Source: Chloranthus sessilifolius (Eukaryota; Streptophyta; Magnoliopsida; Chloranthales; Chloranthaceae). From it: DNA of 64,000 nt. Below are positions 14,410 to 54,789 of the stretch, in pieces. How positions within the stretch are numbered: the stretch's first letter is position 1; every line of letters starts with the position of its first letter. The position numbers and the translations under genes were made by a program. The notes under the pieces are model-generated. The model was not told the origin of the DNA. It was given only the letters and a program-made list of their open reading frames with translations, and searched no databases. The stretch spans positions 45,397,810 to 45,461,809 of the forward strand of contig CM037593.1 of the NCBI GenBank assembly GCA_021018995.1, given 5' to 3'.

Positions 14410-14479
14410 TGTAGACACCCTCATTTTACCCTCTCAGAATATACAAATTTGTTCGGCCATCCTTTGACCTCATAACCCT

Positions 14480-22615: not shown

Positions 22616-23250
22616 CTGCTTCTTCTATATCGTCTTCTGTCATGAACAGGATGTCCACATCGGGGAACTCAGTCCTCAAAGGCTCATAATCAGGTAAAGG
22701 ATTTTTGACAAGATGATCAGCAAGCACCTGCCCCTTGATCGACATCTGAGTGATGTACGTGACGTCGAATTCAGATAATAAAAGTTGCCATCGTGCGGTT
22801 CGTCTAGTGAGAGCTGGCTTTTCAAATAGGTATTTCAATGGGTCTATTCAAGCCAAAAGCAAAACGACTTTAGATAGCAAGTAGTGGCGGAGCCTTTGAG
22901 TAGCCTATACAAGAGCCAGGCATGCTTTCTCCAGATGAGAGTAGCGCACTTCATAATCTGTAAACTTCTTGCTCAAATAGTAAATGGCCTGCTCTCTTCT
23001 TCCCGTTTCATCGTGTTGCCCCATGACACATCCCATCGAAACTTTCGTCGTGGAGAGATACATCAAGAGTGGTCTCCCTGGCTTAGATGGTACCAAAATA
23101 GGTGGATTAAGGAGGTAGCTTTTGATTTTTTCGAATGCTGCCTGACAATCGTCGTTCCATTCAACAGGCGAATTCTTCCTTAGTAACTTGAAGATCGGTG
23201 TGCAGATTGGAGTTAGCTATGCAATGAACCGACTGATATGCTATATTCTG
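22616..23250 (-). pseudogene. Element C first RNase H
   Basis: The reading includes LLMYLSTTKVSMGCVMGQ, REQAIYYLSKKFTDYEVRYSHLEKACLAL, ARWQLLLSEFDVTYI and SIKGQVLADHL, the standard order of a gypsy RNase H. The first catalytic aspartate seems replaced (YLSTT), as is common where a second RNase H is present. A frameshift lies between 22838 and 22905. Confidence 0.8.
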
Positions 23251-24259
23251 CCCAGAAACCCTCTAACCTCTTTCTCGATAGATGGCGGTGGCATTTCAGT
23301 GACGGCTTTGACTTTGATTGGGTCGACCTCGATCCCCCTCTTGCTGACGATGAACCCTAGAAGTTTCCTTGACATAGCACCAAATGCGCACTTCTGTGGA
23401 TTCTGTCGTAGTCTATATACTTCCTTAGCCTTTCAAACAGTTTCTGAAGGTTTACCAGATGGTCGCTTCGCTCTGGTTACTTGGCTATTATGTCATCGAC
23501 ATACACTTCAATCTCTCGGTGCATCATGCCATGAAATAGTGCAGTCATAGCTCTTTGGTACGTTGCATCAGCATTCTTCAACCCGAATGGCATGACTCGA
23601 TAGCAAAAGGTTCCCTAGGGGGTAATGAACGTTGTCTTCTCGCGATCAACCTCTGCCATTTTGATTTGATTGTATCTTGAGAATCCATCCATAAAAGAAA
23701 GCATCCCGTGCTTAGCTGTGTTATCGACTAAGATGTCAATGTGTGGTAATGGAAAATCATCCTTTGGGCTCGCTTTGTTCAAATTACAAAAATCGATACA
23801 CATGCGGACCTTTCCATCCTTCTTCGGCACAGGTACAATATTGGCTAGTCACTGCAGGTATCTGGATACCATGAGAAACCCCGCGTCATACTGTTTGATG
23901 ACCTCATCTTTGACTTTCAGCATCCATTCGGGTTGGAGACGTCTCAGCTTCTGCTTGACTGGCTTCATATCGGGGTAGAGGGGCAACTCATGCTCGACCA
24001 AATCAGTATCAAGACCAAGCATGTCCTCGTATGACCAGACAAAAATGTCTTGGTATGACCTAAGGAAGTCGATCATGCTTTTTCTTTCCTCAGGAGACAG
24101 TGACGTTCCGATTTTGGTTATCCTGGGAACCTCCTCAGTTCCTCGATTGACGTCTTCGGTCTCTTCGACAACAGGAGTAGGGCCATACTCAAAGTCGGCA
24201 AATCGGTCAAGGAGCTCATTGGGGAGCTCCTCGAAGGGGACATCCTCGTCCAGACTCAT
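23251..24259 (-). pseudogene. Element C reverse transcriptase
   Basis: It begins with an acidic linker, then HELPLYPDMKPVKQKLRR (RT start), PKKDGKVRMCIDFCNLNKA, MLSFMDGFSRYNQIKMA, MPFGLKNADATYQ and the catalytic YVDD box (EVYVDDIIA, about 23485-23515). All main RT blocks are recognisable and YVDD is intact. A TGA replaces a tryptophan codon near 23848, and further shifts occur near 23615 and 23480. It would copy element RNA into DNA in virus-like particles. Confidence 0.85.
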
Positions 24260-24989
24260 GATCCCTACCTCGTCTTATATTTCTACAGGGAAGGGGTCGA
24301 TTTCACGTGGGACGGATATTTTGATTAAGGCATCCTTTTGTGGGACATTTTCTGGAATTTTAAATGACAATGTTTTTGGATTTTGGATTTTTTTAATGTT
24401 TTTAGGATTTTGTGTTTTTTCCATGTTTTTGGGATTTTGTATTTTTTCCATGTTTTTGAGGTTTTTGTTTTCTTCGGAGACGGACCCTTGGTGAGGCGGG
24501 TTGCTATATATACAAGGTATTGTCCGCCAAGAGCTTCTCTCACTTTTTATAGGTTGTTTTTTTTTGGGAAACGGGTGCCATACTTTAGGCCACTCCCCGC
24601 TTCCAGAGTTTGGGACGAAGATGCCCAATTGCGTACTTGAGGGGCCGCTTCGTTACCTGTTGGGATGGAGGGTGCTGACTGATATGGCTCATTGGAGTCA
24701 GCCTCCATCATATTGATCCCCATTTCGTCTGAGATCATGTCCTCAAACGATAACTCGGTTTTGTGGTGATTTACCACAGGGGGGTTTGTTCAGGTACCGA
24801 CCGTCGTTCCTCAAAAAGGGACAATGCCGCCAAATCTATCTCCAAGCTGGGAAGGGAGATCTGGGGATTTGTGGGATGGACTGGGGCTATGGGTTTGTGT
24901 GGGGTCAAATGGGTTGCCCCATTTTGATCGATCTTTACGACTCCTGCACTGACAAAAGAATCCCTGATGTGTGGCCTAAGGCGAGGTTT
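24260..24989 (-). pseudogene. Element C protease-RT linker
   Basis: This low-conservation pol segment shows an N-K-P repeat stretch (KNMEKIQNPKNMEKTQNPKN, about 24370-24470) caused by short DNA repeats. No catalytic motif is seen. Confidence 0.55.
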
Positions 24990-25235
24990 CTCTTCTATGT
25001 TGATTCCTCGAGCTCTTACAGCCACGGTGACCCTGGCTTTCTCTTTGGCCTCTCTGGCCTCTTGCTCTGTGGGCTTGTATCCTAGCCCGAATCTTACTTT
25101 CTATCCCTTAGCCACAATTGACTCTCTTCTGCCTTGTAATTTGAGTCCCAGACCCCTTCCTTTCTGATAGCCCCACTTTTGGAGTATTGCCACTGCCGCT
25201 ACCATACCGCCTCCCATTTTAGACATGATGCCCTC
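24990..25235 (-). pseudogene. Element C G-patch domain
   Basis: MSKMGGGMVAAVAILQKWGYQKGRGLGL, with the glycine-rich GYQKGRGLGLKLQGR and RFGLGYKPTEQEAREAKEK, is a typical G-patch arrangement following protease. One in-frame TAG interrupts it. G-patch modules bind RNA and are known after the protease in Tat-type and some retroviral polyproteins. Confidence 0.75.
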
Positions 25236-25830
25236 AATGGGTTCTGGGAGTATAGCTGACACCTCATATTCAAAACTGTGGAGGTCAACATCCTCCGCAG
25301 TATGCGGTATATCCAGTATGTTAGGTTTTTCTACGCTATTGGTGGCCTTCTCTTTCTCACAGCACCCCTCTCCGATGATTGTGATACTCTATGCCCAGAT
25401 GCAAATTTGAGTTTCTGGTGCAATGTGGAAGGTATGGCTCCGACTTCATGTAGCCACAAGCGCCCCAATAACAGGTTAAATGAGGATTTGGTATCTATGA
25501 CTTGAAACAAGATGGAAAAGGTCATTGACCCTATCAATAGCTCAAGATCAACTTCTCCCATTATTTCTCTCCTGGTATTGTCAAACCCTCTAGCGCTGGT
25601 TCTGGTGGGCCTTAGCATGCACGGATCAACCCCGATCTTGGTGGCGATTCTTAACGGGCATATATTCAATGCAGACCCATTATCAATTAGTACCAAGCAG
25701 ATAATCATATTTCCGGACTCAACGATTATATTCAAAGATTTTGAGTGATTACCTCCTTCCTTAGGTAAATCGCCATCAGAAAATGAAATGGCATTTGGAG
25801 CCATCACTTGACCAATTATCTGTCCGACTT
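25236..25830 (-). pseudogene. Element C aspartic protease
   Basis: The signature is LIDNGSALNICPL, the Tat-lineage form of the D-S/T-G active site, followed by the flap-like EIMGEVDLELLIGS and the terminal NLLLGRLWLHEVGAIPSTLHQKLKF. The length and motif order fit a complete domain. It would cleave the gag-pol polyprotein as a dimer. Confidence 0.85.
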
Positions 25831-27477
25831 CATCTGGGCTAACTTAGAGTGATACATGCACATTTTTTAACGCCCCCATTAATGCTTGAAAATAGAGTGG
25901 GAACGTCATCAATAGATCCCATACAGTGATATGGGCAGGCATTCTTCTCAGCTGAGTCTCCAATATATGTTCTCGACTCATCTTCTCGAAGGGGTTCACC
26001 GCGCTATCTTTCTTTCCTTTGGGTTGGGCCTGTGCTGCTGCTGGTATTTCTGACTGCTTTGATATTCTCCTTGATCTAGTAACAAAATCTACTACCCCTT
26101 ATCTGTTGCTGCATTCGACATTGATATTTGTTTGTTCGTAGCTTAGTGGGACCTGATGAGGATCAGATGTGGGTCCCAAGAGCTGGAAGGGTATGGCTGT
26201 CGGTTCTTGAGGTACTTGTACTGTCGGCTCAAGAGGTGTGGGCAATACTTGATTCACCTCGGTGGCAGCGGGTTGGGTGGAAAGATTGGGTCAAATGGGG
26301 GTGGTGAAGCTTGAGGGTGGTGGCATTGGAGGGAAGGAGGTAAAAGTAGGCCATTGATAGCTAGTGGGTGTTGACAGCAGATGGGGGGTCTGATGGGCCG
26401 TTAGGTAATTGACCGGGGTGGTGGAATTTGTCGGTGGTTGAACTGGGGGGGATGGAGTGGGCACAGGCCATTAATAACTGATGGGTGCGGGTGTTGGATT
26501 GGGGGCCTGGTGGCTTAAAGGGTAATCGATGGGGGTTGTGGTGTATGGTGGTAGTTGAAATGGGGTGCGCATGCCATTGATATGGGTGAGTGAGGTGATT
26601 GGGGGGCATGGGGGTTTATAGGGTAATTGATGGGGGTTGTGGTGTATGGTTGGTATGCATTGATATTTACATAATTGACGGGTGTGGTGGACAAAAAGTA
26701 TGCCCGGAGATCCAAAGGTTCAAATTTTGCGGTTGGGTTGGGGAAATATTCAGACAAATTTAGGGGTTCAATTACCCCAACATTCCTTTCTTCATCATTC
26801 CTCGGCCAAGGTGCCACATAATTCTTCCGATCACTGATATAATCGGATGGGTCAAATTCAAACTCCTCCTCATCTTCTATCATTCCTATGGTGGGTCTGG
26901 GACCTGCTCCTCCGGTAGGATGTGGGGGTAGTGGCACTTGGTGAATATTAGCATGCTGAGAAGGTGCAGGGGGAATGATTTTTTTGGCATCGATCAAATC
27001 CTGGATGGCGTGCTTCAATGGAAAACAACGATCAGTAGGGTGACCCAAACCCTGATGAAAAATGTAGTGGGTATTTGGGTCATAGTTCCTTGGGATCGGG
27101 TGAGGAGGAGGTTGCGGTTGGCGGATAGCCACTAATCCCTTTTCTACTAATAGGGGAAAAAGTACACTCAAAGATTGCCCCAGCGGTGTGAAGACTCGGT
27201 CGTAGTGGGCCCTCCTTTGTTCCGGGGTCATTTTCATTCCTTGCCCATTCCCCATTCTTTGCGTCTGCTCAGGCCTAACAAGTGTTGGTGGGGCTGCCTG
27301 AAATTGAAATGGGGTAGTATTATTGGTCCTGGTATTCACTATGTTATGGACATCGCCCCCTGTTCTCTTCTCGTTCTTCTGCTCTGAAAATCTTCTAACC
27401 CCACTGAGTCCACTTGGCACGTTCTTATTCAGACGGCCCTCTCTGATGGCATCCTCACATCGGTTAGTATTTTTCAC
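25831..27477 (-). pseudogene. Element C gag C-terminal region
   Basis: It contains YIFHQGLGHPTDRCFPLKHAIQDLID, where the C/H spacing resembles the knuckle of Tat gag proteins (usually with an extra cysteine, here tyrosine). An acidic patch follows (MIEDEEEFEFDPSDY), then repeated Y/P/N/T-rich blocks (about 26290-26720) encoded by duplicated DNA. Frames break near 26515. The role would be RNA packaging. Confidence 0.75.
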
Positions 27478-28440
27478 CAGATCAGCAAAACAGGACTGCT
27501 ACTGGTATACTAAAAAGTCTGAGATTACTGACAGAGTGTTCTTTGAAATCATCTCTATTTATTCATCATCAGGTATTTTATTCCTGACCTAAGCTGCCAG
27601 TGCTCCCCATCGCCCTAAGTAGTCGTTGAAGGTCTCGTTCTGGTTCGGCTTCAAACGGGCAAAGTCAGACTTATGCGGCTTGATGTCTATATTATAGACA
27701 TACCATTCTTGAAAGAGATGTGTAAAGTCCCTCCACGTTTTCATCATAGACGGTTCTAATGATGTGAACCATCTTAAAGTCGGCCCGGTCAGACTCTTTT
27801 GAAAGACTTTTATTAGTAGTCTTTCGTCCTCCCCGTATTGGCACATGTCCCCACAGTAGGACTTCAGGTGCGCAATAGGATTTAGCGTGCCATTATATTT
27901 GCCGAAGGCTGGCATTTTGAATTTGGGGGGCAGGGGGACCTCAGCAAATAGACATAAGTCTGTGAAGTTTGTGGTGTGAATTTTAGCACCACCCATTTTC
28001 ATCAGCTGCTTTTGTATTTTGTCCAACTGTTCTTTCAACTGCTCTGACTCTTTCGATACAGGGGTCGCTTTCTCCGCCGTCAGTTGGACTTCACTCTGGG
28101 CCACCAGGGGATGGGAAATTATAGGAGGAGGGTTGAGGCTGGTCAAAGCCCGAGCATAGGCCCCGCTATTCCTAATCTCGTCCTCTTCATACTGCTGGTC
28201 GGCATAGTGTGCAGCGAGGGCGGGATTCTCCTGTTGTTATTGCATGGGTTGGATGAGAATGATATGAGTAGGGGTTGGGTGAGCCCATTGGGGGTGAGGA
28301 AAGGTTTGTTGGGTGATGGGAATTTGGTTTTGAGGCAAGGCCTGATGGGGCCATTGGGTATGGGGTAAGGTTTGGAGATGACCTTGGGTGTGGGGCCATG
28401 GGAGAATTGGGTTTGGGGGATGACATGGGTTTGACCCAGC
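27478..28440 (-). pseudogene. Element C gag core
   Basis: After a proline/glutamine-rich lead it shows a short coiled segment (SKESEQLKEQLDKIQKQLMK), then the gag core KFKMPAFGKYNGTLNPIAHL, GPTLRWFTSLEPSMMKTWRDF and QNETFNDYLGRW. These are the recognised blocks of the Ty3/gypsy capsid domain. One TAA lies near 28236 and a stop at 27589. It assembles into virus-like particles. Confidence 0.85.
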
Positions 28441-29850
28441 TGTGAAGGCTGGGTTAAATGTTAGGGGTATTGTGGAAGGTGTGAGTGTGGGGTTCGGGCT
28501 TGGGCCATGAACCCTTGGTCATTCTGGGTCATGGGCCATTGATAGGTTTGGGCCATGGACCCTTGGTAGGTTTGGGCCAAGGGCCCTTGATGAGCCTGGG
28601 CCATGGGCCCTTGATAGGTTTGGCCCAATGGGCCTTGAGGGGTCTAGGCCATGGGCCCTTGGTAGGTCTGGCCCAGTGGGCCTTGATGGGTTTGGGCCAT
28701 GTAGCCTTGGTGGGTCTGGGCCATGGGCCCTTGGTGGATTTGGCCCAATGGGCCTTGATGGATCTGGGTCATGGGCCTTGGTGGGTCTGACCCAATGGGC
28801 CTTGATGGGTATGAGCCATGGGCCCTAGGTGGGTTTAGCCCAATGGGCCTTGATGGGTCTAGGCTATGGGCCCTTGGTGGGTCTGACCCAATGGGCCTTG
28901 ATGGGTCTGAGCCATGGGCCCTGGGTAGGTTTGGGTGGTGGGGTATTAGGCCATGGGGCCCTAGGATATGTGGAAAAAGGGGGTTTGGGCCAATGGGCCT
29001 TGGGGTATGTGGGAGTTTGGAGATTAGGCCATGGGGCCTTGGGGTAAGTGAGTAATGGGGGTTTGGGTGGTGTGGATTATGGGGGTTTGATGGGGGTCAT
29101 GGGGGAGTGAGGCATGGAGATTGGCTAGGGTGTGAGACAGGTTCATGGATATGAGGTGTGGAGGAGAGGAGATATTTTGGGAAGCCTTCCATATAGAGTA
29201 GGCTTGAAACATCTCCTCCATCATGGTCATCGAAGGAGGATGGGATGTGGATGGTGGGTTCAAGGGATGATTGGATATGGGTGAGATGGATGTGGAGGAT
29301 AAATTGGGCATGGCCTTGGTGAAATTGGGCATGACCCGAGTAGATGGGGGGATTGGTGGGGGATCGGATAGGGCGGAAGTGGTGTATGTGAATGTGGGTG
29401 GATCGGGTCTATAGGGGGAAGAAGGGAAGTGGGGCATGGATGTGGATTGGGAAAATGGGTTTGGCATGGAAGTGGATGGACTACGGGGTGGGTTTAGCAT
29501 GGGTATGGGATGGAAAATGGGCATTGTTTGGGCAAAAGATGGGGAGTTGGGGATTGGATTTTGGATATTTTGTGGGGTAGCGGTAGGGAAGATGGGGCGC
29601 CAAACGGGCCGGTAACGGTAAAAGGGGGTTGGGTGAGGGGAATGGTGGAAAAAACTTCCCCCGAATGGGAGTGGGTTGGACAATGTGGCGGGGATGAGTT
29701 GGGATCGGCGTAAAGTGGGTCCACTACCCACGACATTCTTCGGGAGCGGGTCGAGTAAGGGTGCCTTGGATAAGGCCCAAAAATCCTCCTCCTTCTTCCC
29801 CTACGAGACGGCGGAGGGCAAGATGACGTCGTTGTACTGGCACCACAAAC
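28441..29850 (-). pseudogene. Element C proline-rich gag N-terminus with 8-residue repeats
   Basis: From about 29850 the frame reads KKEEDFWALSKAPLLDPLPK and then a P/S/T/H-rich stretch to 29024, ending in an array of 24-bp repeats (28505-29045). There is no ATG at the start of the longest frame, so the true start is uncertain (ATG at 29736 is in another frame). The TAG at 29024 replaces a CAG in the repeat. Long proline-rich gag N-termini occur in Ogre-type elements; I assign no specific function. Confidence 0.6.
28505..29045 (-). repeat. 24-bp tandem repeat array coding an 8-residue repeat
   Basis: About 22 degenerate copies of a 24-bp unit, on the minus strand GGCCCATGGCTCAGACCCAT plus CAAG, encode G-P-(M/L)-(A/G)-Q-T-H-Q. 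The period equals eight codons. A one-base loss near 28770 shifts the frame. Confidence 0.85.
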
Positions 29851-31169
29851 TATATATTTTTTGGGTTTTGATTATATATATTTTAATTTTATGAAAAAAA
29901 TTTAAAAAATTCTCCCTTAGAATTTCCTTTTCGGGTGGCTCTCGTACCTTAATTCAAGACCCGCGGCAACAGTTCTGATGCACTTCGGAAGATTCGAATG
30001 AAAACCTTCGATCTATTGAAGGCACAGAAATTGAGGCAAACAACCCGATCCCTCGGATTGAGCCAAAAAGAGGTTTCCCTCTTTTGACCGACGGGGGCAT
30101 ATTGGGTATCGAAGATGGCGGGGCCTAAACAAGGCACTAAGCACACTGATCGGGGAACTCAGGAGGCGGAAAGGGCTAAGGATTCGGGCTGGGGCTGTGC
30201 AGGCAGACCTGGCGCAACTAATATTTGCGCCCAGGTTGCAGGGGAGCCTTTTTACAATGGCACAACTATTAAATGGACTTTAAAGCTGGCGCAACTATTA
30301 GTTGCGCATGATTATAATTCGAGTTTTGGGTAACTAATACATCATGACCAAAACTCAAGCTCAGATTCTGATAGCAGCCACCAACACCCGAAATGAGTCT
30401 TTTTTTTTCTGGTTTTTGTGGAAGCTAGGCTTCCTGGAACTGAGCTATTCTTTAGTGATCGATTCGCTCCTCACCACACCTAAAAGGTTTGAGTTCGGTA
30501 TAACTCGCTAGCGTGCTCCCCAAGGGTTTTAAGCTTTGGAATGGGAACCCACCCGATATACCTCCGGCGCAAGCGCCTTCTCAAATATTAGGTGGGCTGG
30601 GACTTTTCTGGATCATCACCACTAGGGGCTGCCACCATACTAAGACCCGGGTGTTTATGTGTTTGCCTAATCCCAACCCCTTCGAAAATCTAACCCATAA
30701 AATAAATTAATTAAGCTCTCTAACTTGGTTCAATTTTAATTTTTTCAAAGCTTTTTTCTTTTTTTGAAAGTTTTATTTAGTTCAAAGACCGGGGGTGATT
30801 ATCCCGTGCCGCCACTATGGGCCGGCGTCCACTGTTAGGATATGAGTGCGCAAGTAGGCTTGCCAATAGGCTAAGGCACTTTAAATGATGGAAAATTAAA
30901 GGAATTGGAAGACAATGCGTGAGTAGGCCCGCCAACCAGCTAAGGCACTAAAATGACAGAAAGGTAAAGAAATTAAGAGACAATGCGCATGTAGGCCCGC
31001 CAATCGGCTAAGGCATATAAATGACGGAAAAGTAGGGGTGAGAAAAATGACTTAATCGGAGGGGTGAGTTAAAAAAAATTAGCAAAAAATAAGACAAAAA
31101 TAGCAATAAATGTTAGAAAAAATAATATAAATAAAAAGGCCTAGGTCAAGGGAAAGCTCTACTAGCAAA
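29851..31169 (-). other. 5' leader of element C
   Basis: This is about 1.3 kb between primer site and gag. It contains two further TGGCGCAACTATTAG palindrome copies (30208-30309) and three tandem ~66-bp units (30843-31035). No coding sequence is supported. Confidence 0.65.
30843..31035 (-). repeat. Three ~66-bp tandem repeats in C leader
   Basis: Each unit carries GACAATGCG..., then GTAGGCCCGCCAAT and GGCTAAGGCA, on the plus strand. They lie close to the primer site at 31170-31187. Confidence 0.8.
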
Positions 31170-31187
31170 TTCCCAGCATAGTCGCCA
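31170..31187 (-). other. Primer-binding site of element C
   Basis: TGGCGACTATGCTGGGAA lies two bases inside the 5' LTR on the minus strand. It matches the Ogre/Tat-type site TGGCGACTCCACTGGGGA, which is usually assigned to tRNA-Arg. Confidence 0.75.
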
Positions 31188-31189
31188 TC

Positions 31190-32771
31190 TATTCAACCGT
31201 GGGAATTGAGACGATCCCGTCGCGATGATGCGCTCTCTAACGAAAAATATAGAGTCACCACCTGGAGCTTTCGGTGTCCCGGGATACCTGGTTCATTTTT
31301 ATGAGCAACTAAGTGCTAAAAATATGACTCTGAATTCGATCCACACCAAAGGCTCTTGGGTAGAGGCTTCAGTTATCGATCGGGAAGGTGTTAGGCACCA
31401 GATCAACCCGCTTAACGCGGTCTCTACTAATGGCCAAAAATAAAATAAAGTAAAAGAAAGGAAAATAGCTTCCTCTTGTCCAAAAGGGCTTAGAATCCTA
31501 TTTGCGCCCCTTCGTTCCTACCGAAAAGTTGGTAGCATAACGGCACAAATGGGAGGATAGAGGGAGCTAGAAAGAGATAGGAGAAGAAAGGGGAGAGCCG
31601 GGGCCCTCAGGCCCTTGTAGCACCGTATAGGAGCCTTGCTTGGCTTGCTTTTGATGAGCTTTTGGAGGCTTGAATGGTGGGAGAAAGGGTTCTAACCACT
31701 AAGGCCTACTAGCTAGGAGATGGAGAAGAGAGGCTAGGGGATCACACATACCTAGGCTAAGGGTTTTGGGTGTAAGAGCAAGCTTGGAAAGGGGTTTTTA
31801 AGTTTTAGATTTTAGGTGAAAATAGTGCACCAAAGGGAGGAAGAACTTCTCACTTGGAGCTCTTTCTCTCTTAAGCAAAATTCTCAACCCTTAAGCAAGA
31901 GGGGTGGCTCTCTATTTATAGAGGAAGGGAGGATTAGTGAGGGGTTAAAGTCCTAATTGGATTAGCAATTAGGTAATGGGCAATCTAAGGTTTCCTAGGG
32001 TTTTTGGTGCCTTGACATGTGTGAGAAGGTCCTCCAATGGTGGATGATGGGGTGAGGCTGAGGGGGTGCAAATAGGGTTCAAAAGGGTGCAATAGAACTA
32101 GCTAAACACACTCAAAATGTCAAGGTGGTCAAAAAGTCAAACCTTAGTCACAAATTTCGGGGCAAAATCCAACAGTTACTGTTCATATGCCTGGCGCAAC
32201 TATTAGTTGCAAAATCTCTGATAAAGCGATAATGAACAATAGCACGGAAGTTGGCTCATGAGGGTGGGGACCCATTTATACCTGGCACAACTATTAGTTG
32301 CGCTAGGCCATTTCTGGGGAAAAAAGGCCTTGGCGCCAAACAAATTTAGGGGGAAAATGGCTTGGCGCAACTATTAGTTGCGCTAGGCAAAAATCCCTCC
32401 AAAAAAGCCCGATTATTAAATGGTCATAACTTTTGATATATAACTCCGATTGAGGCGATTCTTGGCTCGTTGGAAAGCTGGAGAAGTCGTCTTTCCAATG
32501 GTATATGATATGATATCAGTAGAAGACCTTAGATAGTCCTAGTATACCACTCTTCATCCATTGACCGGGAATGTTAGGTTTAGGATTTGAAATAGGTTCT
32601 AAGGGTCGGGATTGGTTTCTAAAGGTTCGAGATAGGTTCCTAAGGAATCTATGGTGATTCCTAAGGGTTTAGGGTGATTCCTAAGGGTTCCATATATGCC
32701 ATCAAAAGCTCAGAATTGTACCTCTCTAATGATGTTTCGATCGGGCCTTGGGCCAAATTTGGGTGTCTACA
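31190..32771 (-). repeat. 5' LTR of element C
   Basis: It is colinear with 16420-18036, with a few small deletions in the palindrome area (about 32195-32390). Differences between the two LTRs are mostly C/T and G/A. Confidence 0.9.
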
Positions 32772-32776
32772 GACTG
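32772..32776. other. Target-site duplication GACTG, right of element C
   Basis: It pairs with GATTG at 16415-16419; one transition has occurred since insertion. Confidence 0.85.
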
Positions 32777-33410
32777 TTATACTTTATTTAATTACAATAC
32801 AACCAACATACTTGCTCAAATTTGAATTTTAGTATAACTAGCATGCTCGATTTAATTAGAGTTTCACCAGAACTACTACATGTGCACTCCTAGTACAATT
32901 AGGAAACCTTACCACTACTAGACTTCTAATGGGATTAAGAGACTAAAATTAATCAGACTTCTAGTGGGATTAGGACGCTTAATTAATTAGACTTTCAATA
33001 AGGATAAGAGAAGTAAAAATTAACTAGACTCTTAATAAGATTAGAATAAACCCACATAACTAAACTTATAGCAGAATTGGTTAGTTTAAACTAATTAGGA
33101 CTAAAATAATAACAGGGGAAGGGAAGAAAAATTAAACTATCTAAATTATAAGAAAAGACATAGCTGCTGACGTTCGCAGGTAGACGATTCAGTAAAGAAG
33201 TAGCCCACACCCGCTCTAAAGCGTAATCATTAGCGTGTTGCAGCGTCATTAAATATCTATTGCTGACGATCACAACAAACTAGGAACCTTCCTAGAAAAC
33301 TCTTTATTTCTAACATTCTAAACGCCGCATCGCTAGAGTCTACTTGGACAGAATTGGAGCTACTGAGTCAATGGGGACCGAGAGGAACCCAGAAAAAGCG
33401 TGCACCAACA
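32777..33410 (+). repeat. 5' LTR of element B, right part
   Basis: It resumes B's 5' LTR after C and matches 54146-54784. It ends GCACCAACA next to the primer site. Confidence 0.9.
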
Positions 33411-38655: not shown

Positions 38656-39670
38656 GTGATCATACCGAACAAGATACTTCGTGACTTTGAGAGAAGAATT
38701 AGTAGTCTTGACCTTCACCTTACAAAAGATCTCTCAGTCATAGATTGTGTTGATGAAGGGTTACCTTTCACAAACTCAGATCCCCAGTGTAGCAATTTCG
38801 TAGTATACAAACTTACTAAGGACGAAGAAAGAGCACCAGTTCCCGAGGAGGCACTGGACTTCCAATGGGTTATCAAGCGTTTTGATGAGCAAACCTAAGC
38901 TGCCATAAAACCCACAGAAGAGCTTAACTTTGGCACTTAAGAGAAACCCAAGAAGCTACTGATTAGCTCAACGCTCAATTCGAAGGAACCCTAATAGATT
39001 GCACAAGTCTTGTAAGAACACCTTGATTCCTTGACATGGTCCTACGAGGACATGCCCGATTTAGACCCAAGTTTAGTAGAACATCGCCTCGTCTTAGAAC
39101 CCGATGCAAAGCCTGTTAAGCAGAGATTCTGCAGGATGCACCTACAAACCGCCCTCCATGTTAAAGAGGAAGTCGACAAGTTATACAAAGCCAAATTTAT
39201 CCGAGTCGTTCTTTACCCTAAGTGGGTCACCAATATAATACCTGTCGCTGAGAAAGATGGTAGAGTACGAGTTTGCATTGACTTTTGAAACCTCAACCAG
39301 GCATGCCCAAAAGATGATTTCCCACTTCCACACATTGACACTCTAGTCGATAACACTGCTGGGCATGAGATGCTATCCTTTATGGATGATTTTTTTGGAT
39401 ATAATCAAATAAAATTAGCAAAGTCCGACCAAGAGAAGACTTCCTTCACCACACCATGGGAAACTTACTATTACGTCGTCATGCCTTTCGGGCTCAAGAA
39501 CACAGGAACCACGTATCAATGCGCCGTGATGGCTATCTTTCACGACATGATGCATAAGTGTATAGAAGTCTATGTCAATGACATATTATTGAAGTTTCAA
39601 ATGCCAGTAGGACATGTTGAAGCGCTCCAACTGGTGTTACAAAGAGCTAAGAAATATCAGCTAAAATGAA
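38656..39670 (+). pseudogene. Element B reverse transcriptase
   Basis: RT blocks are visible: HRLVLEPDAKPVKQRF, EKDGRVRVCIDF, ACPKDDFPLPHIDTLVDN, MLSFMDDFFGYNQIKLA, VMPFGLKNTGTTYQ. The catalytic box reads YVND instead of YVDD (about 39571-39582), which would remove an essential aspartate. Stops lie at about 38896-39012 and after CIDF at 39289. Confidence 0.85.
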
Positions 39671-40200
39671 CCCAAAGAAATGTGTCTTCGGGGTCACTTC
39701 CGAAAAATTACTTGGTTTCACAGTTAACAAGTGAGGGATCAAAGTTAACCCTGTAAAAGTCAGAGCCATCCTCGAGATGTCGCCTCCTAGTAATATCAAA
39801 GAGTTACGAGGCCTGATAGGAAGATTGTAATTCATCAGAAGATTTATATCCTAGCATTCAGACAAATGCGATCCTTTCTACAAACTACTTAAAGGATGTA
39901 ATGAGTAGAAATGGGATGATCAGTGTCAGCAAGCCTTCGACAACATCAAGAAGTACCTCCTTAACCCGCCAATACTATCGCCACCAGTCCCTGAAAGACT
40001 CCTAATTCTATACCTCTCAGCAACCAACAAAATAATGGGAGTAATTCTGGGACAATATGAAGAAGTCGACAAGAGAGAGAAGGCTATCTACTACCTCAGT
40101 AGGACAATGGTCAAATACGAACGAAAATATACTTCAATGGAGAAGACTTGCCTCACATTGGTGTCAAAGGACAAGCAGTCGCTGATTACCTCGCAGATCT
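39671..40200 (+). pseudogene. Element B first RNase H, internally deleted
   Basis: The start (LLILYLSATNKIMGVILGQ, REKAIYYLSRTMVKYERKY, EKTCLTL) and the end (VKGQAVADYLADLPLP) are present. Compared with element C, about 45 codons between them are missing at about 40160. The deletion removes the middle of the fold. Confidence 0.75.
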
Positions 40201-40840
40201 CCCATTGCCGAATGATGAACCCGTGCATGCAGATTTCCCCGATGAGGACCTATTCATGATTCATAACGAATAGCCCGATAAGACCTCATGGACCCTTTAT
40301 TTTGGCAGTGCTCTAAATCACAAAGGAAAAGGCATCGGGATAGTCCTCCTATGCTCAGAAGGAGTTGTCATACCTAAGGCTTTTCAACTAGATTTTCCTG
40401 TCACTAACAATGTCACAGAATATGAAGCCTTTATAGCTGGACTACGACTAGCGCTAAAATTAGGTATTAAACAGTTAAAAACCATCGACGGTTCCAAACT
40501 GGTAATTTCACAAGTCATAGGAGAATGGAAAACGAAGGAAAGGAGACTAATGACATAGCTAGAAACCGCTCAATATTTAGTAAAGAAATTTGAAAGAATC
40601 TCTTTCACATACATCCCTAAATTAGAAAATGAGCTTACAGATTCTTTAGCCACGCTAGCCTCAGTCATCCAAATACCCATTGGGCAAAATACCAAAACCT
40701 TCTTCATTGAAAAGCTAACAGTACTCGCCCACGAGGTAGCATGGACTGTCAAGAGAGAATTACCCATCCTCCCCACAGGTACAAGACCGAAAGAAGTAAT
40801 CACCTCAGAAAAGCATGTCAAGACAGAAACCAAAGTTGTT
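40201..40840 (+). pseudogene. Element B second RNase H
   Basis: SWTLYFGSALNHKGKGIGIV, FPVTNNVTEYEAFIAGLRLALKLG and ELTDSLATLAS are the blocks of the archaeal-type RNase H of the Tat lineage. The usual FDG reads FGS here, so the first catalytic aspartate is lost. Confidence 0.75.
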
Positions 40841-42148
40841 ATGTTCAGATTTGAAAAATCACCGATCGACGATACACAACCATGGTATTTCGATATCTGG
40901 AACTTCTTGAAACATCAACATGCCCCTCCATACGCCACGAAGATCGAACAGAAGACTATAAGGAACCGATGCGCCCAATTCTGCATACTCGATGAAACAT
41001 TATACAAAGAGGCCTTCACTAAAGGAGTACTACTATGATGCGTCACGACTATCGAAGGATAATACATCATCCGAGAAGCACACGCCAGTGCCTGCGGCAT
41101 CGACTCTGGTAGACAGAGGCTAGTCGATCAAGTTACGCGACAAGGTTACTTTTGGCTGACAATGATCAGAGATTCCCACCTCTACGTCTAATCCTACAAG
41201 CAATGCCAAGAACATGCCACACTCGTCCACGCTCCATCAGTTGCATTGAATACTATGACCTCGCCATGGCCATTTTCGATGTGGGCCTTCAATGTTATTA
41301 GACATTTCACAGACACCGTTGGGAACACTCACAAGCACGCGTTCATACTTACAGCAACCGAATATTATACTAAACGAGCAGAGATTGAATCCTATGTTAG
41401 AATCACCGCTTCAACACTCGTAAGGGTTATCGTTCGAAATATCATCACCAGGTTTGGAATACCCAGGATGTTTGTCACTGACAACGGACCACAGTTCATC
41501 ACGGAGAAGATGAAGAAGTTATGCAAGAAGTATGACATCGATCTGTGCCATTCATTACCGTTCTACCCTCAAGAAAATGGACAGGCAGAAGCTATGAACA
41601 AAATGTTGATTCCAATCCTAAAATGCACAGTAAAAAGGAGCAATAGAGCCAACTGACCTGAATGACTACCGGAAGAACTCTGGGCCTATAGGACCTCTAT
41701 TCGTATGGCCATTGGCCAAACTCCCTACCTCCTTACCTACGGGATGGAGGCAGTCCTACCATATGAGATATAAGTACCATCCTTACAGATTCAACTCGAT
41801 GATGAGATAACCTTAAACGAGAGGAGAATTGTCCTACTCATGCAGTTAGAGCAGATCGATGAAACACGTCTAAGGGCAACTGATCACGCTCAAGTATATA
41901 AGAGGAGAGTGGCCAGGGCTTACGATAAGAAAGTCCTTGAACGAACCTTTAATATTGGAGAATTAGTCTTGAAGAAAATCATGCCTTCCAAGCATGCCCA
42001 TCCGAAAGAAAAATTAAAACCGAACTGGTCAGGCCCATATGTCATAACAGCCGCATACCCTGGAAATGCCTACAAACTGGCGAACCGAGACAAGGAAGAA
42101 CTCCCTAGCCCTTGGAACGCCATGTACCTTAGAAAATATTACCCTTAG
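40841..42148 (+). pseudogene. Element B integrase
   Basis: An H2C2-like region (REAHASACGID..., QCQEHA, 41065-41220) precedes the core (41246-41656). The core has FVTDNGPQF and ENGQAEAMNK with 35 residues between D and E, but the first catalytic residue is N (WAFNVI instead of WxxDxI). The C-terminal part (41840-42148) has SGPYVITAAYPGNAYKLAN and ends with a stop after MYLRKYYP. Confidence 0.85.
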
Positions 42149-43788
42149 CCCTATGATCATCACATCCCGTTGTTAAATACTTATACTTATCACCCCCATA
42201 GTCGTCATGACCCATTCATTGGTCATACGCCTTCAATTCTCAGAATATCCTTAAGACCTCTAATTTATCGCCCACCTTTTCTCACTCGGGCAATCTGATT
42301 AAAGGACTAGTGACCTATCTAACCTCTTTCAAAAGCATAAGTAACACCCAATTCTCATTTCCCTTCCCTCATTATTGGAGGAGATGTTAGAGCAAAAAAA
42401 AAATGAAGATGTTAGGTTCAATCAAAACTCATTATTCTTGCATTAGCAGGATGCTTTCAAAATACATATATAAAAATCGAGCGAAAGCATTACGACGAAT
42501 GAACAAGTCAATGAGTTCAGGGAAGCATAAGTAGATCGTGAGGACATCCCAGGTAACATTACTAGAAGTGTATAAGAAAGCTATGACGGCATCCCTGATG
42601 TCCCCATACTACTAGATGTCATCGTAAGGTGGCGGGAGGAGGATAAACTCCTGCTAACCATAGAATATGAGATTTTGATGGTGCTGAAAGATGACGAAGA
42701 GGTAGATCATGGCACCCCGTATCCCCCAAAGAAAAAGATTGTTACTCACTCCTTTTGGAAAGCCTTAGATACGAACTATTCCCTACATCACTGAGCCTTA
42801 CCTCCCCCCCCCTCTTCTATTTTTATTTTAGACGATAAATCAGAAACCTTATAGGATGTTCCTAGAAATGAAACTGAAAACTTATGAATGATGACTGATG
42901 CAATCACCTACTATACCTACCATACTTCTCCCTAATAACCATGGGATAGGATGACCACCACCCTAAGATAAACCCCATATACAACTGACCTAATCAATGA
43001 GACCTCCCCGGTTCGATGACAGTATTGATCATCTTTTCTTCAAAACTAACTCACCAAATACCCATGATTGCTTATAGACCTAAAGTGCTCATCTCGAAAC
43101 CCAGAAAAGCTCCATTGCATCTTGACGCTGGGCATTTTTTTTATTAGAAGAAGAATCATATTAGAAGCGTCGGCTTGTCTACAAAGAAGATGAAGAACGA
43201 CGAAGTTACCATCCGAAAAGTGCTACCGAAGATACCATACTACCAATCCTACCACGCTCCTACACTGGGGCATTTTTATTTTTTATTATTTTATTATTAT
43301 TTTTATCTTAGCTATTTGCTTTCCCTGTTGCATTGTTGTCATTTTAAAAAAAAGAAAGAAAAAAAAAGAGAGAAAAAAAGAAGAAAAAAGAAGAGCACAT
43401 ATCCATCTTTTACTACCAGACTCCGGTCTGAGACACTTATCCCCCTTGACAACTAACAAGGGGGAGAATAAAAACTACTGATAGTATTACTCTCACATGT
43501 GCAGATACGAAGCAACCTTCAACCATCACCGGGCCAGCTCAGGAAGCATCTAAGTCCTAATGACGGTCGATGGCGCTAAAGCAACTAAAAAGCAAGAGTA
43601 GACGCAAGAGGTAACTAAAAGAAAAGGAGCCAATCAGGTACATCTAAACCAAAAATCTCTCTATATATATGTCAAAATCTTTCATTTTCTTTTACTCTTG
43701 TCACCGGGGGCATCCCCCCTATATATAAAACACACACATACCATGAATATAAAAAGAGCACACACACACATCCCTACTCCCTACACTG
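42149..43788 (+). other. Element B 3' region between integrase and antisense gene
   Basis: There is no supported coding sequence. The part 42200-43290 is colinear with the minus strand of 63045-64000 (element D). Poly(A)-rich sequence lies at 43260-43400 and a CA/TA-rich stretch at 43655-43770. Two GGGCATTTTT motifs occur at about 43131 and 43269. Confidence 0.65.
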
Positions 43789-46700
43789 TCACTGGGAGGG
43801 TCGATCACAGTTGTCCCCAGTATCCTCAGCTCGGAGGTCCGTAGACTGGTCCTCTGAAAATAAAATCCCATTACCTGGAGTCCTCAGAACCTCTAAACAA
43901 CAAGACCCTGCTACAGAACCCCCCTCACTCGCCTGACTAACAGACCGCCTCGATCGAGAATTAGGAGGATACCTCGTAAGAATATCACGAACTGCCGAAT
44001 CCCTACGAGCATCATCCTTGATGCAATCATGTGACGTGTGACGAGACTGCCCAGCCAAGGAACTCGTAGCCCTTGACTCTGAGCCATCAAACTGACTAAC
44101 CAACCTATGTACCCCTCACTCACTCCTCGTCAGATGATACTGCAATCGATCTAGGGACACCTGCATCGTCGCCCGCGTTGTCTAACATGCCGCCTCTAAC
44201 TCCTTGGTCTGAGTCCTCTGTGCGACCATCATCTCAATGACCAGGTCCTCACGACTCTGCGTCTCCCTGAGGATCCGTCTCGCCTCGGGAGTGGCACACG
44301 CTCGCACCGCCTCTAGGCGCACCTCCTCAAGCTGACGGACCTGCATAACCATACCAAATCAAAGGAAACCTTATATATTCATAAATAAAATAAGAAACTT
44401 TGAAAAGGAAAGGATTATACCAACTCCAACCTCTCCTCTAGAAGTCACTCGACCATCTCCATGGTCATGGGATCAGCGGGCGGCACCCGAGGGACAGCAA
44501 ATGTGGATTGCTGCAATGAGAACAAACAAATACATTAGAAAAATACCATAATGGCAAATAAACCATGAATATAATAACTAAAACATACCTGAGTAGGGAT
44601 AGGAGCAGACTCCTGAGGGGGAGCCTCGGGAGCAGAGTCCGAAATAGCCTGCACAGAGAACTAAACAAACCAACACAGGACATGTCAGAACAACATAAAG
44701 ACGAAATAACCTAAACAAAATTATGCCACATCCAAAAAGAAACTATACCTGACTCTCCGGGTGTAGAGAGGCAGCAGTCACCTCCCTCGTCTGAAGATTC
44801 TTGGCAACCTGACGTCGAAATACCGTATGATATTAGTAAGCTACTAAGAAAGCAAAACAATGACACCCGAAAAGCTAATGCAATGACATAAATAACATAA
44901 AATATTGAATTGAACTTACCCAATGATCTAGCTCAGTCCAAAACTGAGCCATCACTGCATCCTCCCGACTGGAGGAAGCAACTGAAGATGGATCAAATGC
45001 CCGAACAGGACCTCCAGCAGCAAGCTCGGCTCTCTACGAATAATAATGAACACATCAGTTGGTGAGCTCACGAGGCTAAGAATTCTAAACCATATTTGTA
45101 AAGACACCTACTAATTGATCAATCTCAGATCGTAAGCTGGCCTCCACCTCTCGGTCAGCCTGTTGCTGACCGCGTAATAACTCAATCATCGCCATCTAAC
45201 GAGCAGCCTCACCCTCCCTCATAGACTGTCCAAAATAAAATAAAACGAGACACAACAACCATGTCAAAATGACCAGAAGATAATCCACATAATTAAAAAA
45301 AAAAAACATAAATTAACTCACCAAGAGTCGTCGAGTCTCCTCTAGCCGAGCCCCCAACTCATCCTCAGCCGCCCTAGCCTGAGCAACTAAGGAGGCTAAG
45401 GAGTGCAGCATCTCCTCATCTGGACAAGGAGCACACCCCATCCACTCCATCGCCCTATGGAGGGCGTCTAATGCCCCCCGCACGCTCGCAGTGAGATGGC
45501 CCTGCTCTAATACAACCAACCTCTCCCTCAAAGCCGACGTCGACTCTGGCCCACCGATCGTGAAAGAGCCACTCCCATGGAAGGGACGTGTGAAGAGGCG
45601 CCCACCACCCAATGCACTAAACCACCGCACATACTCTCGGGAGCCCGCCTCGTCACGCGCCCCCGTAACCCTAGTCCCCCCAACTCTAAAATATGCTATT
45701 TGAAGCGCCATCCGCTCCGTAAAATTCTGGCCATGAGGGTCGGTCATCCTCTTCGCCACTTTGTGGCGAATCTCTGGAGAGACTCCTAGAGCGAGCCCCA
45801 GCTGTCGTACCACTCGAGATGTGTGGATCCTCTCCACCCTCTTAAAACAATGGACCCATATGTCCACATCAAAGAAGGGCCAGCCAGGCGGCACGCCCGC
45901 ATCCTCCTCATTAGCATACAACCTCCAAATCACCTACAATCAAGCAAATGAGTCGACCCCTCAACAAAGACTCAGATCCTAAAAGACCGAAACAAAATAA
46001 AAAAAAAGAAACACACGCATGATGATCTATACCTGCCCTGCGTGCATATCCTCAAAGAGACCGTGCGCAGTCTGAAGATTCGAAGACCAATGGCGACCCC
46101 TCAACGCCTCCCTCCACACATTCATCCACAAAAACGTGAAACTCACCTCCAACGGAACCCTCGAATGAAGAAAAGCGAAGTGATCATATGCCCAAAACTA
46201 GAAAACAAATAGAAGAAACGCTAAGTAGATGCTACTATCAAAAGACCAAGAAGAAAAAGGATACTATAACATTAATTAAACTGAAATTCACCTAGAGGAA
46301 GGGAAGGAAACCTCTGATTGACACGACGCCCTATCCCCGACAGTAAAGTTGCTCATAGAGATGCGCCAATGTGGCCGCACCCCACGCATAGGTGGGGACT
46401 ATATCCAAATCCCCAAGAATCATAAAAAATAACCTGGTGACGTATCCCCGAGTCGAAGAAGAGAAGAGTACCGCACCAAGAAAGTGCATTAAGAATGCTG
46501 GAAGCACCCTATCCGCAGCTAACCTCGACTCCACCACGGGCTCCTGGCCCGCCACTATCACACAATGCACCTCATAAGACACCTTCACCTCTGAATGATG
46601 CCTCGGGGGGACGAAGCCACTCGCAAATGTATCAAAGAACCAGGTGACTCAAACTACACCTGGCCCCGATCCACTCGATCTATACGGCACACCCAAAATC

Positions 46701-47550
46701 TCTTCACACACCTCCAAGTAATGTCCTGTCATCCGCCCTGTGATTGGCTCACCCTCAAAACGAAGACCGGTGATGTAGACCCAGTCCTCTGGAGTCGGCA
46801 ACATAATACCAACTGGAAAGAGAAGCGCCTAATGCGTTTCCCTCCACCTCTCTAAGATCGCCGAGATCAAGCCACGATCGACCTGAAAGGGCTCTAGCGC
46901 TAGGATCGGTCCAAAACTGAAAGATACCAGCCGCACCCGCTGAAACTCTGGTAAGGCATGGTACCAAGTATGAGACTCGAACCATGTCGAGCTACTAGCT
47001 AGCTGCGGGGGACTCCTATTGAACGAGACACAAACAATGCAGTAAGACTAGCACATACCTATGACGAAAGATAAGGGCAACTGAATAGAAACATGACCTA
47101 TCTCTAGATGCCGTCATGATGCATGAGTGAGCACGCAACCAAGGATCAATGCAGGTAAGGGTTTTCAGAGCCTAATAACCCTATGTCATAACCTAAATGG
47201 CTAAGAAAATAAAAGAACTCTTGCTCATGGGTGCTTACTCGGCCTTCAGCAAAGAAATCCTCCAGCAGGAAGTGTTTGCGTTCTCGATGCTCGTCAGCTC
47301 TCACATCCTCAGCTCTCTCACCCTCAGGTATCTCACCCTCATCCTCATAGACCCCCTACTCAATCTCGAGCACCTCATCCTGGATCCCCGACTGGTCAAC
47401 CTCTAGTACCTCCTCTCTAACCACCTCCCTAACATCCACCTCCCCAACAACGTCGGACCGAGCCTCAGAAGTATCACCTATCTCTGCCCCTAATATCCTC
47501 TCTAACTCAGAAACGGTAATATCGTGCCTACCACCACCCTCAAACTCCAT
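43789..47550 (-). pseudogene. Antisense ten-exon plant mobile domain (PMD) gene inside element B
   Basis: Exons on the minus strand: 47550-47239, 47002-46292, 46197-46033, 45933-45322, 45225-45112, 45033-44920, 44808-44749, 44648-44589, 44510-44421, 44340-43789. Every intron (78-236 bp) is GT-AG and every exon is a multiple of three, giving 930 codons without a frameshift. Exons 2-4 hold a plant mobile domain: LISAILERWRETH, LPTPEDWVYITGLRFEGEPI, FLMHFLGAVLFSSS, YAWGAATLAHLYEQL, FWAYDHFAFLHSRVP. The tail (exons 4-10) is charged and probably coiled-coil (ARAAEDELGARLEETRRLL; VRQLEEVRLEAVRA). Nine in-frame stops (47356, 46829, 46649, 46331, 46292, 45196, 44445, 44182, 44116; lower coordinate of each) are all TAG or TGA. 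PMD proteins are plant nuclear proteins often carried by transposons. The role here is unknown; it is an accessory gene, now a pseudogene. Confidence 0.85.
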
Positions 47551-47720: not shown

Positions 47721-47728
47721 TATTTATA
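47721..47728 (-). promoter_or_regulatory. Candidate TATA box of the antisense gene
   Basis: The minus strand reads CTATAAATAATT about 170 bases before the ATG at 47550. The position suits a transcription start near 47690 and a leader of about 140 bases. It suggests the gene had its own promoter, separate from the LTR. Confidence 0.45.
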
Positions 47729-52134: not shown

Positions 52135-54784
52135 GGTAGACACCCCAATTTTGTCCTCTCAAAATATACAAATTTATTTGGTCAACCTTTGACCTCATAA
52201 CCCTGATGTGGGACCATATACTGAAATAATAGTATATGGCTAGACACAGGCTGAAACAATAGTTCTGTGCCTCAGGCCCCATACCCCTAACGTGGGAACC
52301 ATGCACTGAAATAATAGTACATGGCTAAACACAGGCTGAAATAATAGCTCTATGGCTCAGATCCCGACGTAGGGAGACTATATACTGAAATAATAGTATA
52401 GAGTCGAAATGCAGACTGAAATAATAGTCTCACATTTTAGACCCCTAACCCTAATGTGGGACCATATGCTGAAACAATAGTATATGGCTGAACACAGGCT
52501 GAAATAATAGTTCTTTGGCTCAGGCCCCATACCCCCGACGTGGGAACCATGCACTAAAACAATAGTACATGGTTGAACACAGGCTGAAACAATAGCTCTG
52601 TGGCTCAGATCCCAACGTAGGGAGACTATTTACTGAAACAATAGTATATAGTCGAAATGCGGGCTGAAATAATAGTCCGACATTTCAAGCCCGACCCGGA
52701 CCCGGACAACCTTGAATTAAGTGCCTAAAACCAAGCACTCAATTCTATTGCATGCCAGATCACATGCACACAATCAGTCCCTTTTTAGACCCGACTTCTT
52801 TTCCCCAGACCATCTAGAGACTCGATCACGCGTCTATCATGAGACATGCGATCAGATTGAGCTCCACATCACGAGCGCGCAATTGGCCTACACTCGGCCT
52901 AGCCTCCTAGTCCTTGACCCCTAAGTCTCCTCGATTAAACACTTTCAGTGTAGCACTTAATTGGATTACGCATCTCAAAATAGGCGCACAATTAGTTCTA
53001 ACGCTATTAGGACTAGGAAACTGGCTGCGCAAGTCAGTCGGTCGCTCATTGAGTCGCTAACCGACTCAAAGCGATTAAGCACCGAGAGACCGATGAGTAA
53101 TTTAATTAAACGCTTGAAACAGGGCATTTAATTGGAGAAAAACATATAAAAGATTTTTTTCTTAATTCGCCCAAGAGGCTGGATAATTTTTCGAGAGAGA
53201 ACGGATTTTTTTAGGATTTCGAAACCAGAGAACTTCGAGGACAAGCCCATAGAGCAACCTAGTCATGATTTGGAGATTCAAGTGCCGAGTCTTCAATGAT
53301 TTCTCTTCGCAGCCCTGGTCCTAGGTAAAAATCTTAGTTTTAGACTTAGGATATTTCTCTTAGTATTAATTATAGGTTTTAATTTTCAGTCCGAGACCGT
53401 AGCACCCTTTTTAGACCGCAAATTTTCTATATTTGAATCTAGTTCTCCGAATTTAGAATCAGTCCTTAATCCGACTATCCGATGCACCGATCCTAGGCTT
53501 TAATTCCGTTCTAAAATCTTAATCTCCAGTCGTATCATTAATCTCTGGTTCTAGTCCTTAGATTCTTGAACCAGTCCTTAATCATACGGTCTGATTTTCT
53601 GATTTTGGACCCAAATTCACTCCTAAAATTTTAAATTATGATTTTAATTTTTTATTTTAATACCTCCAAAAATCCTAAATATTAATTTCAGTTTCTATAA
53701 TTCTAGTTTCTCAATTTCACTCACAATTATTACTTCGAAATCTACTATGAAAAATTCAAAAATACTATTTTATCATCATAAATCCAACTTATCTTCAATC
53801 TCAGCCACCCAATTTGCCCAAGGGAGCTTACAGAGGGAACTCAGGAACGAGGCCAATCCTTCTTAGCATAGTGGGCCCAAAACCCCTTTTTTAAGAATTT
53901 TAAAATTAATTAATCGCTTTTCTTATCTTTTTAGTATAATTAACTAGTAGATTTATTTTATTTCTGCATAATTAATTAATTAAGTTAATTAGATTCTAGT
54001 ATGATTGATTAATTTCTTTCAATCAGATTTTAATTAGTTAATTTCTTGCTCTAATTAGAATTTCAGTATGATTAATTCATTGCTTAAATTAGAGTTATAG
54101 TAAAATTAGTTCTCTATTTCAATTAGAATTCTGGTAAGATTGTTATACTTGATTTAATTAGAATACAACTAGCATACTTGCTCAAATTTGAATCTCAGTA
54201 TAACTAGCATGCTCGATTTAATTAGAGTTTCACCAGAACTACTACACTACTACATGTGCACTCCTATTACAATTAGGAAACCTGATCACAACTAGACTTC
54301 TAATGGGGTTAGGAGACTAAAATTAATCAGACTTCTAGTGGGATTAGAATGCTTAATTAATTAGACTTTCAATAAGGATAGGAGTAGTAAAAATTAATTA
54401 GACTCTTGATAGGATTAGAATAAACCCACATGACTAAACTTATAGCAGAATTGAGAAGTCTAAACTGATTAGAACTACAATAATAATAGGGGAAGGGAAA
54501 AAAAATTAAACTATCTAAATTATAAGAAAATACATAGCTGTTGATGTTCGCAGGCAGACGATTCAGTAAAGAAGTAATGCACACCTGCTTTAAAGCGTGA
54601 TCATTGACGTGTTGTAGCGTTGCTAAATATCTGTAGCTAGCGATCGCAATAAACTAGGAACCTTCCTAGAAAATCCTTTATTTCTAACATTCTAAACACC
54701 GCATCGCTAGAGTCTACTTGGACAGAATTGGAGCCACTGATTCAATGGGGACCGAGAGGAACTCAGAAAAAACATGCGCCAATA
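52135..54784 (+). repeat. 3' LTR of element B
   Basis: It is 2650 bp and colinear with the interrupted 5' LTR. Its first base is changed (GG instead of TG) and it ends CAATA instead of CAACA. The hairpin array is at 52205-52690. It lacks element C, giving the empty-site reference for C. Confidence 0.9.
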
Positions 54785-54789
54785 ACTTT
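54785..54789. other. Target-site duplication ACTTT, right of element B
   Basis: Exact copy of 14405-14409. Confidence 0.95.

Follow-up and report, generated by a model that had tools for sequence, protein, structure and literature searches.

How does a gene split by introns persist in an element that copies itself through RNA, when retroelements are expected to lose introns through RNA passage? The question is raised by a 64,000-nt stretch of the Chloranthus sessilifolius genome (here called the window), which holds a retrotransposon of about 24.0 kb (by coordinates, leaving out a nested element). On the strand opposite the gag-pol region of this carrier, an earlier note had proposed a gene of ten exons encoding a plant mobile domain (PMD) protein. 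Our analysis of the window and of related copies indicates that this is very probably a decayed accessory gene of a Tat/Ogre-type Ty3/gypsy family, one that would once have been expressed antisense, spliced and protein-coding.

Exon-intron structure of the antisense gene

The proposed model was retraced nucleotide by nucleotide on the minus strand, from 47550 to 43789 of the window, and compared with other copies of the gene. A search of the source assembly (2.17 Gb, 32 contigs) found at least 40 genomic places, the window included, that carry the antisense PMD gene (40 of 5789 first-look candidates were scored). Of these 40 places, 30 were aligned, namely the window copy and 29 others; counts of copies below refer to these 30. 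The features of the gene in the window are the following.

47721..47728, minus strand: TATA box, TATAAATA, 178 nt upstream of the ATG
47239..47550, minus strand: exon 1, with the ATG (present in 23 of 30 copies) and an acidic N-terminus
46292..47002, minus strand: exon 2, first half of the PMD (83.7 bits by itself)
46033..46197, minus strand: exon 3, middle of the PMD
45322..45933, minus strand: exon 4, end of the PMD and start of the heptad tail
45112..45225, minus strand: exon 5, further heptad tail
44920..45033, minus strand: exon 6
44749..44814, minus strand: exon 7, starting at 44814 according to the copies (44808, six bases downstream, in the earlier note)
44589..44648, minus strand: exon 8
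44421..44510, minus strand: exon 9
43789..44340, minus strand: exon 10, with the end given in the earlier note; the copies continue to 43774
43774..43776, minus strand: stop codon TAG, present in 27 of 30 copies

Each of the ten exons has a length divisible by three, the nine introns are of the GT-AG type and all in phase 0, and the joined frame comprises 930 codons, the last stop counted. To this extent the model held, but the frame is not open. It is interrupted by nine stops, of which six are TAG and three TGA, whereas TAA does not occur; they lie at 47358, 46831, 46651, 46333, 46294, 45198, 44447, 44184 and 44118. The chosen frame is special all the same: stops number 48 and 68 in the two alternative forward frames of the spliced exons, and 35-37 in the frames of the reverse strand. 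GC content is 54% in the exons and 26-43% in the introns.

The copies corrected the model at two points. The TGA at 43791, which the earlier note took for the end of the gene, is a stop in only 3 of the 30 copies and is therefore counted as the tenth stop of the window copy, whereas 27 copies have a TAG at 43776-43774. For intron 6, the acceptor chosen earlier is an AG in 5 copies, as opposed to 28 copies with an AG six bases upstream; the window copy is one of the two without it. Judged by the copies, the earlier acceptor is cryptic.

The status of intron 1 (47003-47238) is uncertain. It measures 236 nt in the window copy, compared with a median of 328 nt in the copies; its GT is retained in 28 of the 30 copies, and its AG likewise in 28. 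Its first 165 nt contain on average 1.6 stops in frame 0 versus 4.8 and 6.7 in the other frames, and are free of stops in frame 0 in nine copies, so intron 1 may be an alternative exon.

With about ten stops and a lost intron 6 acceptor, the window copy is a pseudogene. It has neither the open frame nor the intact splice sites of a functional gene and can thus itself express no full protein.

The encoded protein

The joined protein, with stops read as X, matched the PF10536 profile at 119.7 bits (E=2e-34, profile positions 10-346 of 347), well past the curated cut-off of 34.9 bits, and so bore out the PMD claimed earlier. Exon 2 alone scored 83.7 bits over profile positions 10-178. Reading it straight into intron 2 brought no gain (83.3 bits), and neither exon 3 nor exon 4 alone matched PF10536. 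A near-complete PMD thus arises only on joining exons 2-4, which supports introns 2 and 3.

The coiled-coil-like tail of the earlier note was recovered in part. Residues 546-650 show heptad periodicity, with a hydrophobic period of 3.5 residues that none of 2000 shuffles equalled. The heptad phase carries on over the join between exons 4 and 5 with a difference of only 18 degrees, and this continuity supports intron 4.

A search with 638 residues of a 5.8-billion protein set, which seemingly includes few plant proteins, returned nothing at E<=0.001 (7993 candidates scored). The PDB sequence search gave no match at E up to 1, and neither of two pattern matches in viral contigs was confirmed.

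Conservation among the copies of the family

The aligned copies are 81-85% alike over their main piece. For introns 1 to 9, both GT and AG were kept in 27, 22, 27, 26, 27, 24, 27, 24 and 23 of the 30 copies, respectively, using for intron 6 the acceptor six bases upstream of the one first proposed. Single copies kept between 4 and 9 of the nine pairs (mean, 7.6). The GT of a splice site was kept on average in 0.908 of the other copies as opposed to 0.678 for 273 other GTs; the corresponding values for AG were 0.905 (eight introns, intron 6 excluded) and 0.751 (292 other AGs). As many as 56 of the 273 other GTs and 111 of the 292 other AGs were kept as well as the splice-site mean. By these averages, conservation of the predicted splice sites is above chance. 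The earlier note had made its spliced gene depend on such conservation in other copies, and the claim came through, though the copies show stops and frameshifts: the introns hold up in the aligned copies, but all 30 of these, the window copy included, are pseudogenes.

In 24 of the 30 copies, the motif TATAAATA precedes the ATG column by 167-201 nt. The chance expectation is 0.12 copies if copies are assumed to be independent, which they are not. Local identity is 0.81 at the TATA box and 0.62 just upstream. The fixed spacing of the TATA box in these 24 copies makes it likely that the gene had its own promoter, in line with the earlier proposal.

For eight of the 29 other aligned copies, 1.3 kb of flanking sequence was read at the distance that matches the window. 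In five of the eight, the same integrase was found on the opposite strand beyond the gene end. The locus has the arrangement of an antisense accessory gene (aORF-3R), that is, a coding region between pol and the 3' long terminal repeat (LTR), on the opposite strand and in many copies.

The carrier element

The carrier and the element nested in it are laid out in the window as follows.

14405..14409, no strand: target-site duplication ACTTT, left
14410..16419, plus strand: 5' LTR of the carrier, first part, found by self-comparison (a nested element splits this LTR)
16420..32771, minus strand: nested Ty3/gypsy element within the carrier 5' LTR, with target-site duplication GATTG/GACTG; not carrier sequence
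32772..33410, plus strand: 5' LTR of the carrier, second part, starting with the right copy of the target-site duplication of the nested element
39289..39666, plus strand: reverse transcriptase piece (RVT_1 profile match, E=1.5e-16)
39909..40256, plus strand: RNase H piece (RT_RNaseH_2 profile match, E=6.4e-20)
40274..40555, plus strand: second RNase H-like piece (RVT_3, E=1.6e-8), between RNase H and integrase
41192..42145, plus strand: integrase pieces (rve, E=3e-10, in 41246-41653, then a C-terminal piece)
52135..54784, plus strand: 3' LTR of the carrier, found by self-comparison
54785..54789, no strand: target-site duplication ACTTT, right

The two LTRs are 89% alike, ACTTT is duplicated at both sides, and the order of reverse transcriptase, RNase H and integrase is that of Ty3/gypsy elements. 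The RVT_3 match between RT_RNaseH_2 and rve places the carrier in the Tat lineage (Ogre or Retand), as the earlier note had it; an extra RNase H between RNase H and integrase is described for Ogre and Retand in PMC6317226. Also as claimed, the PMD gene lies antisense to gag-pol, on the strand opposite to pol, between the end of the integrase pieces (42145) and the 3' LTR.

Kimura two-parameter divergence between the LTR pieces is 0.117 (2635 sites). At substitution rates of 1.3e-8 and 7e-9, the carrier would have inserted about 4.5-8.3 million years ago. The sequence right after its 5' LTR starts with TGGCGATCGC, which may resemble tRNA-Arg. Ogre is distinguished by its place in reverse transcriptase phylogeny, by a primer site complementary to tRNA-Arg and by an intron separating the gag-prot and reverse transcriptase ORFs.

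Further observations concern the rest of the window. The nested element, on the minus strand, contains integrase and reverse transcriptase pieces and LTRs that are about 90.5% alike, and no PMD match was found within 16420-32771. Tandem repeats of 85 and 248 bp occupy 52196-52685 in the carrier LTR. In the gag-pol region, 36895-37191 resembles a G-patch (E=0.0011; 19.3 bits, below the cut-off of 22), a domain reported from Gypsy elements (PMC9289625). At the right edge, 61860-62136 and 63357-63898 match 50945-51229 and 42286-42842 of the carrier and belong to a minus-strand relative; this relative is without the PMD block, as its two stretches lie 1.2 kb apart, not 8.1 kb. An Rfam scan of the whole window gave nothing at the gathering threshold.

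Decay and selection

The window copy has ten stops (TAG 6, TGA 4, TAA 0). Had the frame been open at insertion, 6.8 would be expected since then from the divergence of the element's own LTRs (TAG 4.0, TGA 2.3, TAA 0.5); this expectation uses, by choice, halved LTR-pair rates, and unhalved rates give about 13.6. The number and type of stops fit decay after insertion of a presumably open frame. Frameshift-type indels were found in 29 of the 30 copies, the window copy being the one without them.

The uncorrected pairwise ratio of nonsynonymous to synonymous divergence averaged 0.51 (435 pairs). Since plant transposable elements mutate fast at CG and CHG, noncoding columns were used as the mutation yardstick. 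The divergence and selection counts were restricted to biallelic sites and to codons with at least 20 usable copies, variants were called shared when the minor allele occurred in three or more copies, and sites were compared off-tree. Among transitions outside CG and CHG, shared variants comprised 52 nonsynonymous (N) and 68 synonymous (S) changes, as opposed to 157 N and 69 S among private ones (Fisher p=3.3e-6). Transversion difference was 0.043 in introns versus 0.038-0.044 at the three codon positions of the exons. With moderate confidence, we read these counts as purifying selection in the active lineage, which would then have been overlaid by neutral decay.

Alternative explanations

Several observations weigh against a gene that was spliced and coding in its active lineage. 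The gene model is known here from DNA sequence alone. Six of the seven tail segments tested gave no heptad signal, and the integrase match was absent from three of the eight sampled flanks (1.3 kb read). Every one of the 30 aligned copies has at least one in-frame exon stop, so no intact gene was seen. The stops of the window copy recur in 2-7 of the 30 copies, which may reflect recurrent deamination or the propagation of copies already dead. Once corrected for context, the N/S ratio was only mildly low, at 0.65-0.72 of the expected value. Shared and private variants did not differ in CG/CHG transitions (203/151 vs 37/31 N/S, p=0.69), nor in transversions, where sites are few (12/2 shared vs 156/25 private). 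Introns are no more divergent than exons, with a pairwise divergence of 0.149 as opposed to 0.169, 0.151 and 0.190 at codon positions 1-3.

Stops in 30 of 30 copies, some of them shared by several copies, and exon divergence equal to that of introns are what a neutral passenger would leave, that is, a host gene captured once, already dead or useless, and hitch-hiking ever since. We regard this as distinctly improbable: the stops, in number and type, agree with decay of a frame that was still open when the element inserted, most copies retain the splice sites, the TATA box and the start codon, and replacements are scarce among the shared transitions outside CG and CHG. It is also improbable that the antisense transcript is what matters and the protein is incidental, with the transcript pairing with genomic RNA, yielding small RNAs and tuning or silencing the element. 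An RNA role has been suggested generally for antisense open reading frames (ORFs) (PMC7264820), and tea has 175 PHAS loci at PMD genes (PMC10673657), but such a role requires neither the retention of nine splice-site pairs nor a frame in which shared variants change fewer amino acids.

Two other possibilities concern the locus itself. PMD genes are also carried by MULE DNA transposons (PMC5418596), and a host PMD gene or a PMD-carrying DNA transposon might have inserted in the window copy only. This is very unlikely, and for the family as a whole it is refuted by at least 39 other genomic copies together with the flanks, five of eight of which have the antisense integrase at the matching distance; in addition, no pair of LTRs or inverted repeats immediately framing the gene was found in the self-comparison. 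An exon chain produced by the free choice of GT and AG would agree with the errors of the first model, whose intron 6 acceptor and terminal stop were wrong and whose intron 1 is doubtful. Such an artefact is nevertheless hardly credible, being contradicted by the copies: profile continuity, splice-site conservation, heptad phase and the intron positions held in common with another PMD locus (L004, below) all speak for the chain.

Other PMD loci and the origin of the introns

A search of the genome for PMDs gave at least 128 matches (117 of 20277 candidates scored). Among the matches listed, 76 of 128 end at profile positions 176-188 and 23 of 128 at 235-243, near the sites of introns 2 and 3, respectively. 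Three genic-looking loci (L001-L003) contain the full domain unbroken and without an intron at either position. The locus L004 consists of three open PMD exons separated by introns of 96 and 90 nt. In a protein alignment, these introns fall in the same columns (263 and 327) and the same phase 0 as introns 2 and 3 of the element gene. Of eight genomic PMD loci, L004 is the closest to that gene (30% over 208 aa, tblastn), and it is single-copy, since the one full-length match in the genome was L004 itself (all 33 candidates scored).

Because columns and phase coincide, introns 2 and 3 are older than the split between the element gene and L004. Given the two shared positions, the element most likely acquired its gene from a PMD gene with introns, either in the form of genomic DNA or through unspliced antisense RNA, or else the gene goes back to an ancestor of that kind. 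Capture from such a gene and descent of L004 from an element gene of this kind would both fit.

Four other loci (L005-L008) form a second multi-copy PMD family, 77-88% alike, in which a break at the intron 2 site was seen by eye. In L007 (minus strand), a PMD running from a same-strand integrase was considered and set aside: likeness to the other three ends at 1480, and the join is probably a rearrangement.

Proposed expression, intron persistence and function

For the decayed accessory gene that we favor, the following course is proposed. In the active family, its own TATA promoter would have driven the gene on the strand opposite gag-pol, and about nine introns would have been spliced out to give one mRNA. 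The protein would have combined an acidic N-terminus, the PMD and a heptad, coiled-coil-like stretch. Lying antisense to the genomic RNA, and hence unspliced there, the introns would have been recopied in each round of reverse transcription. Persistence of introns through antisense placement is our inference, and it fits the data. As to function, the likeliest is that of a nuclear protein modulating silencing or expression of the element, a suggestion that we make tentatively.

Relation to known elements

Parts of this picture are already in print, namely the occurrence of PMDs in Ogre/Gypsy elements, the existence of antisense accessory genes and the idea of counter-silencing. Among Ogre elements, 57% were reported to have the PMD (pfam10536) in extra ORFs (Neumann et al. 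2019, PMC6317226), and the PMD is the commonest atypical domain in plant Gypsy consensuses (PMC9289625). The carrier shares with Ogre the PMD in extra ORFs, a size of up to about 24 kb and the second RNase H between RNase H and integrase. The Ogre survey, however, counted single ORFs of at least 250 codons (PMC6317226), whereas the window gene has ten exons, the longest of 237 codons. Like the window PMD, the PMD-A1 and PMD-A2 clades are encoded by Gypsy retrotransposons, across angiosperms, and are distinct from the genic PMD-B and PMD-C (MAIN/MAIL) (Ikeda et al. 2017, PMC5418596).

Antisense accessory genes driven by a promoter of their own have been described (PMC7264820), as have antisense TRP28 genes in Retand (PMC11963269). 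The antisense genes described in the latter paper resemble the window gene in place and orientation, and in Grande, gene23 has a promoter of its own and encodes a nuclear product. As described, these antisense genes are single-ORF genes that encode Transposase_28 or no domain, as opposed to a PMD and nine introns here. Arabidopsis MAIN and MAIL1 also contain a PMD and are tied to silencing of transposable elements (PMC7156037, PMC8616336), but these are host genes, whereas the window PMD gene is carried by an element. That element-encoded PMDs act as counter-silencing factors is a published hypothesis (PMC8616336). No account of a conserved nine-intron antisense PMD gene was found in the literature searched, the coverage of which left out most subscription journals.

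Implications

At least 40 copies keep up to nine introns in an accessory gene, and antisense placement would therefore suffice to protect introns in a retroelement. Surveys based on one long ORF, with minimum lengths of 250 codons (PMC6317226) or 600 bp (PMC11963269), would miss or truncate such intron-split genes, and large Tat elements may therefore encode more than has been counted. The positions that introns 2 and 3 have in common with those of L004 could serve as a marker for the direction of PMD transfer between host and element, a question left open in PMC5418596. A more far-reaching possibility, which we consider rather unlikely, is that a host PMD gene was captured antisense, that its introns, splice sites, TATA promoter and frame were kept over many RNA-mediated cycles, and that the spliced nuclear protein countered PMD-based silencing. 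If so, introns 2 and 3 would be ancient host introns inside a retroelement.

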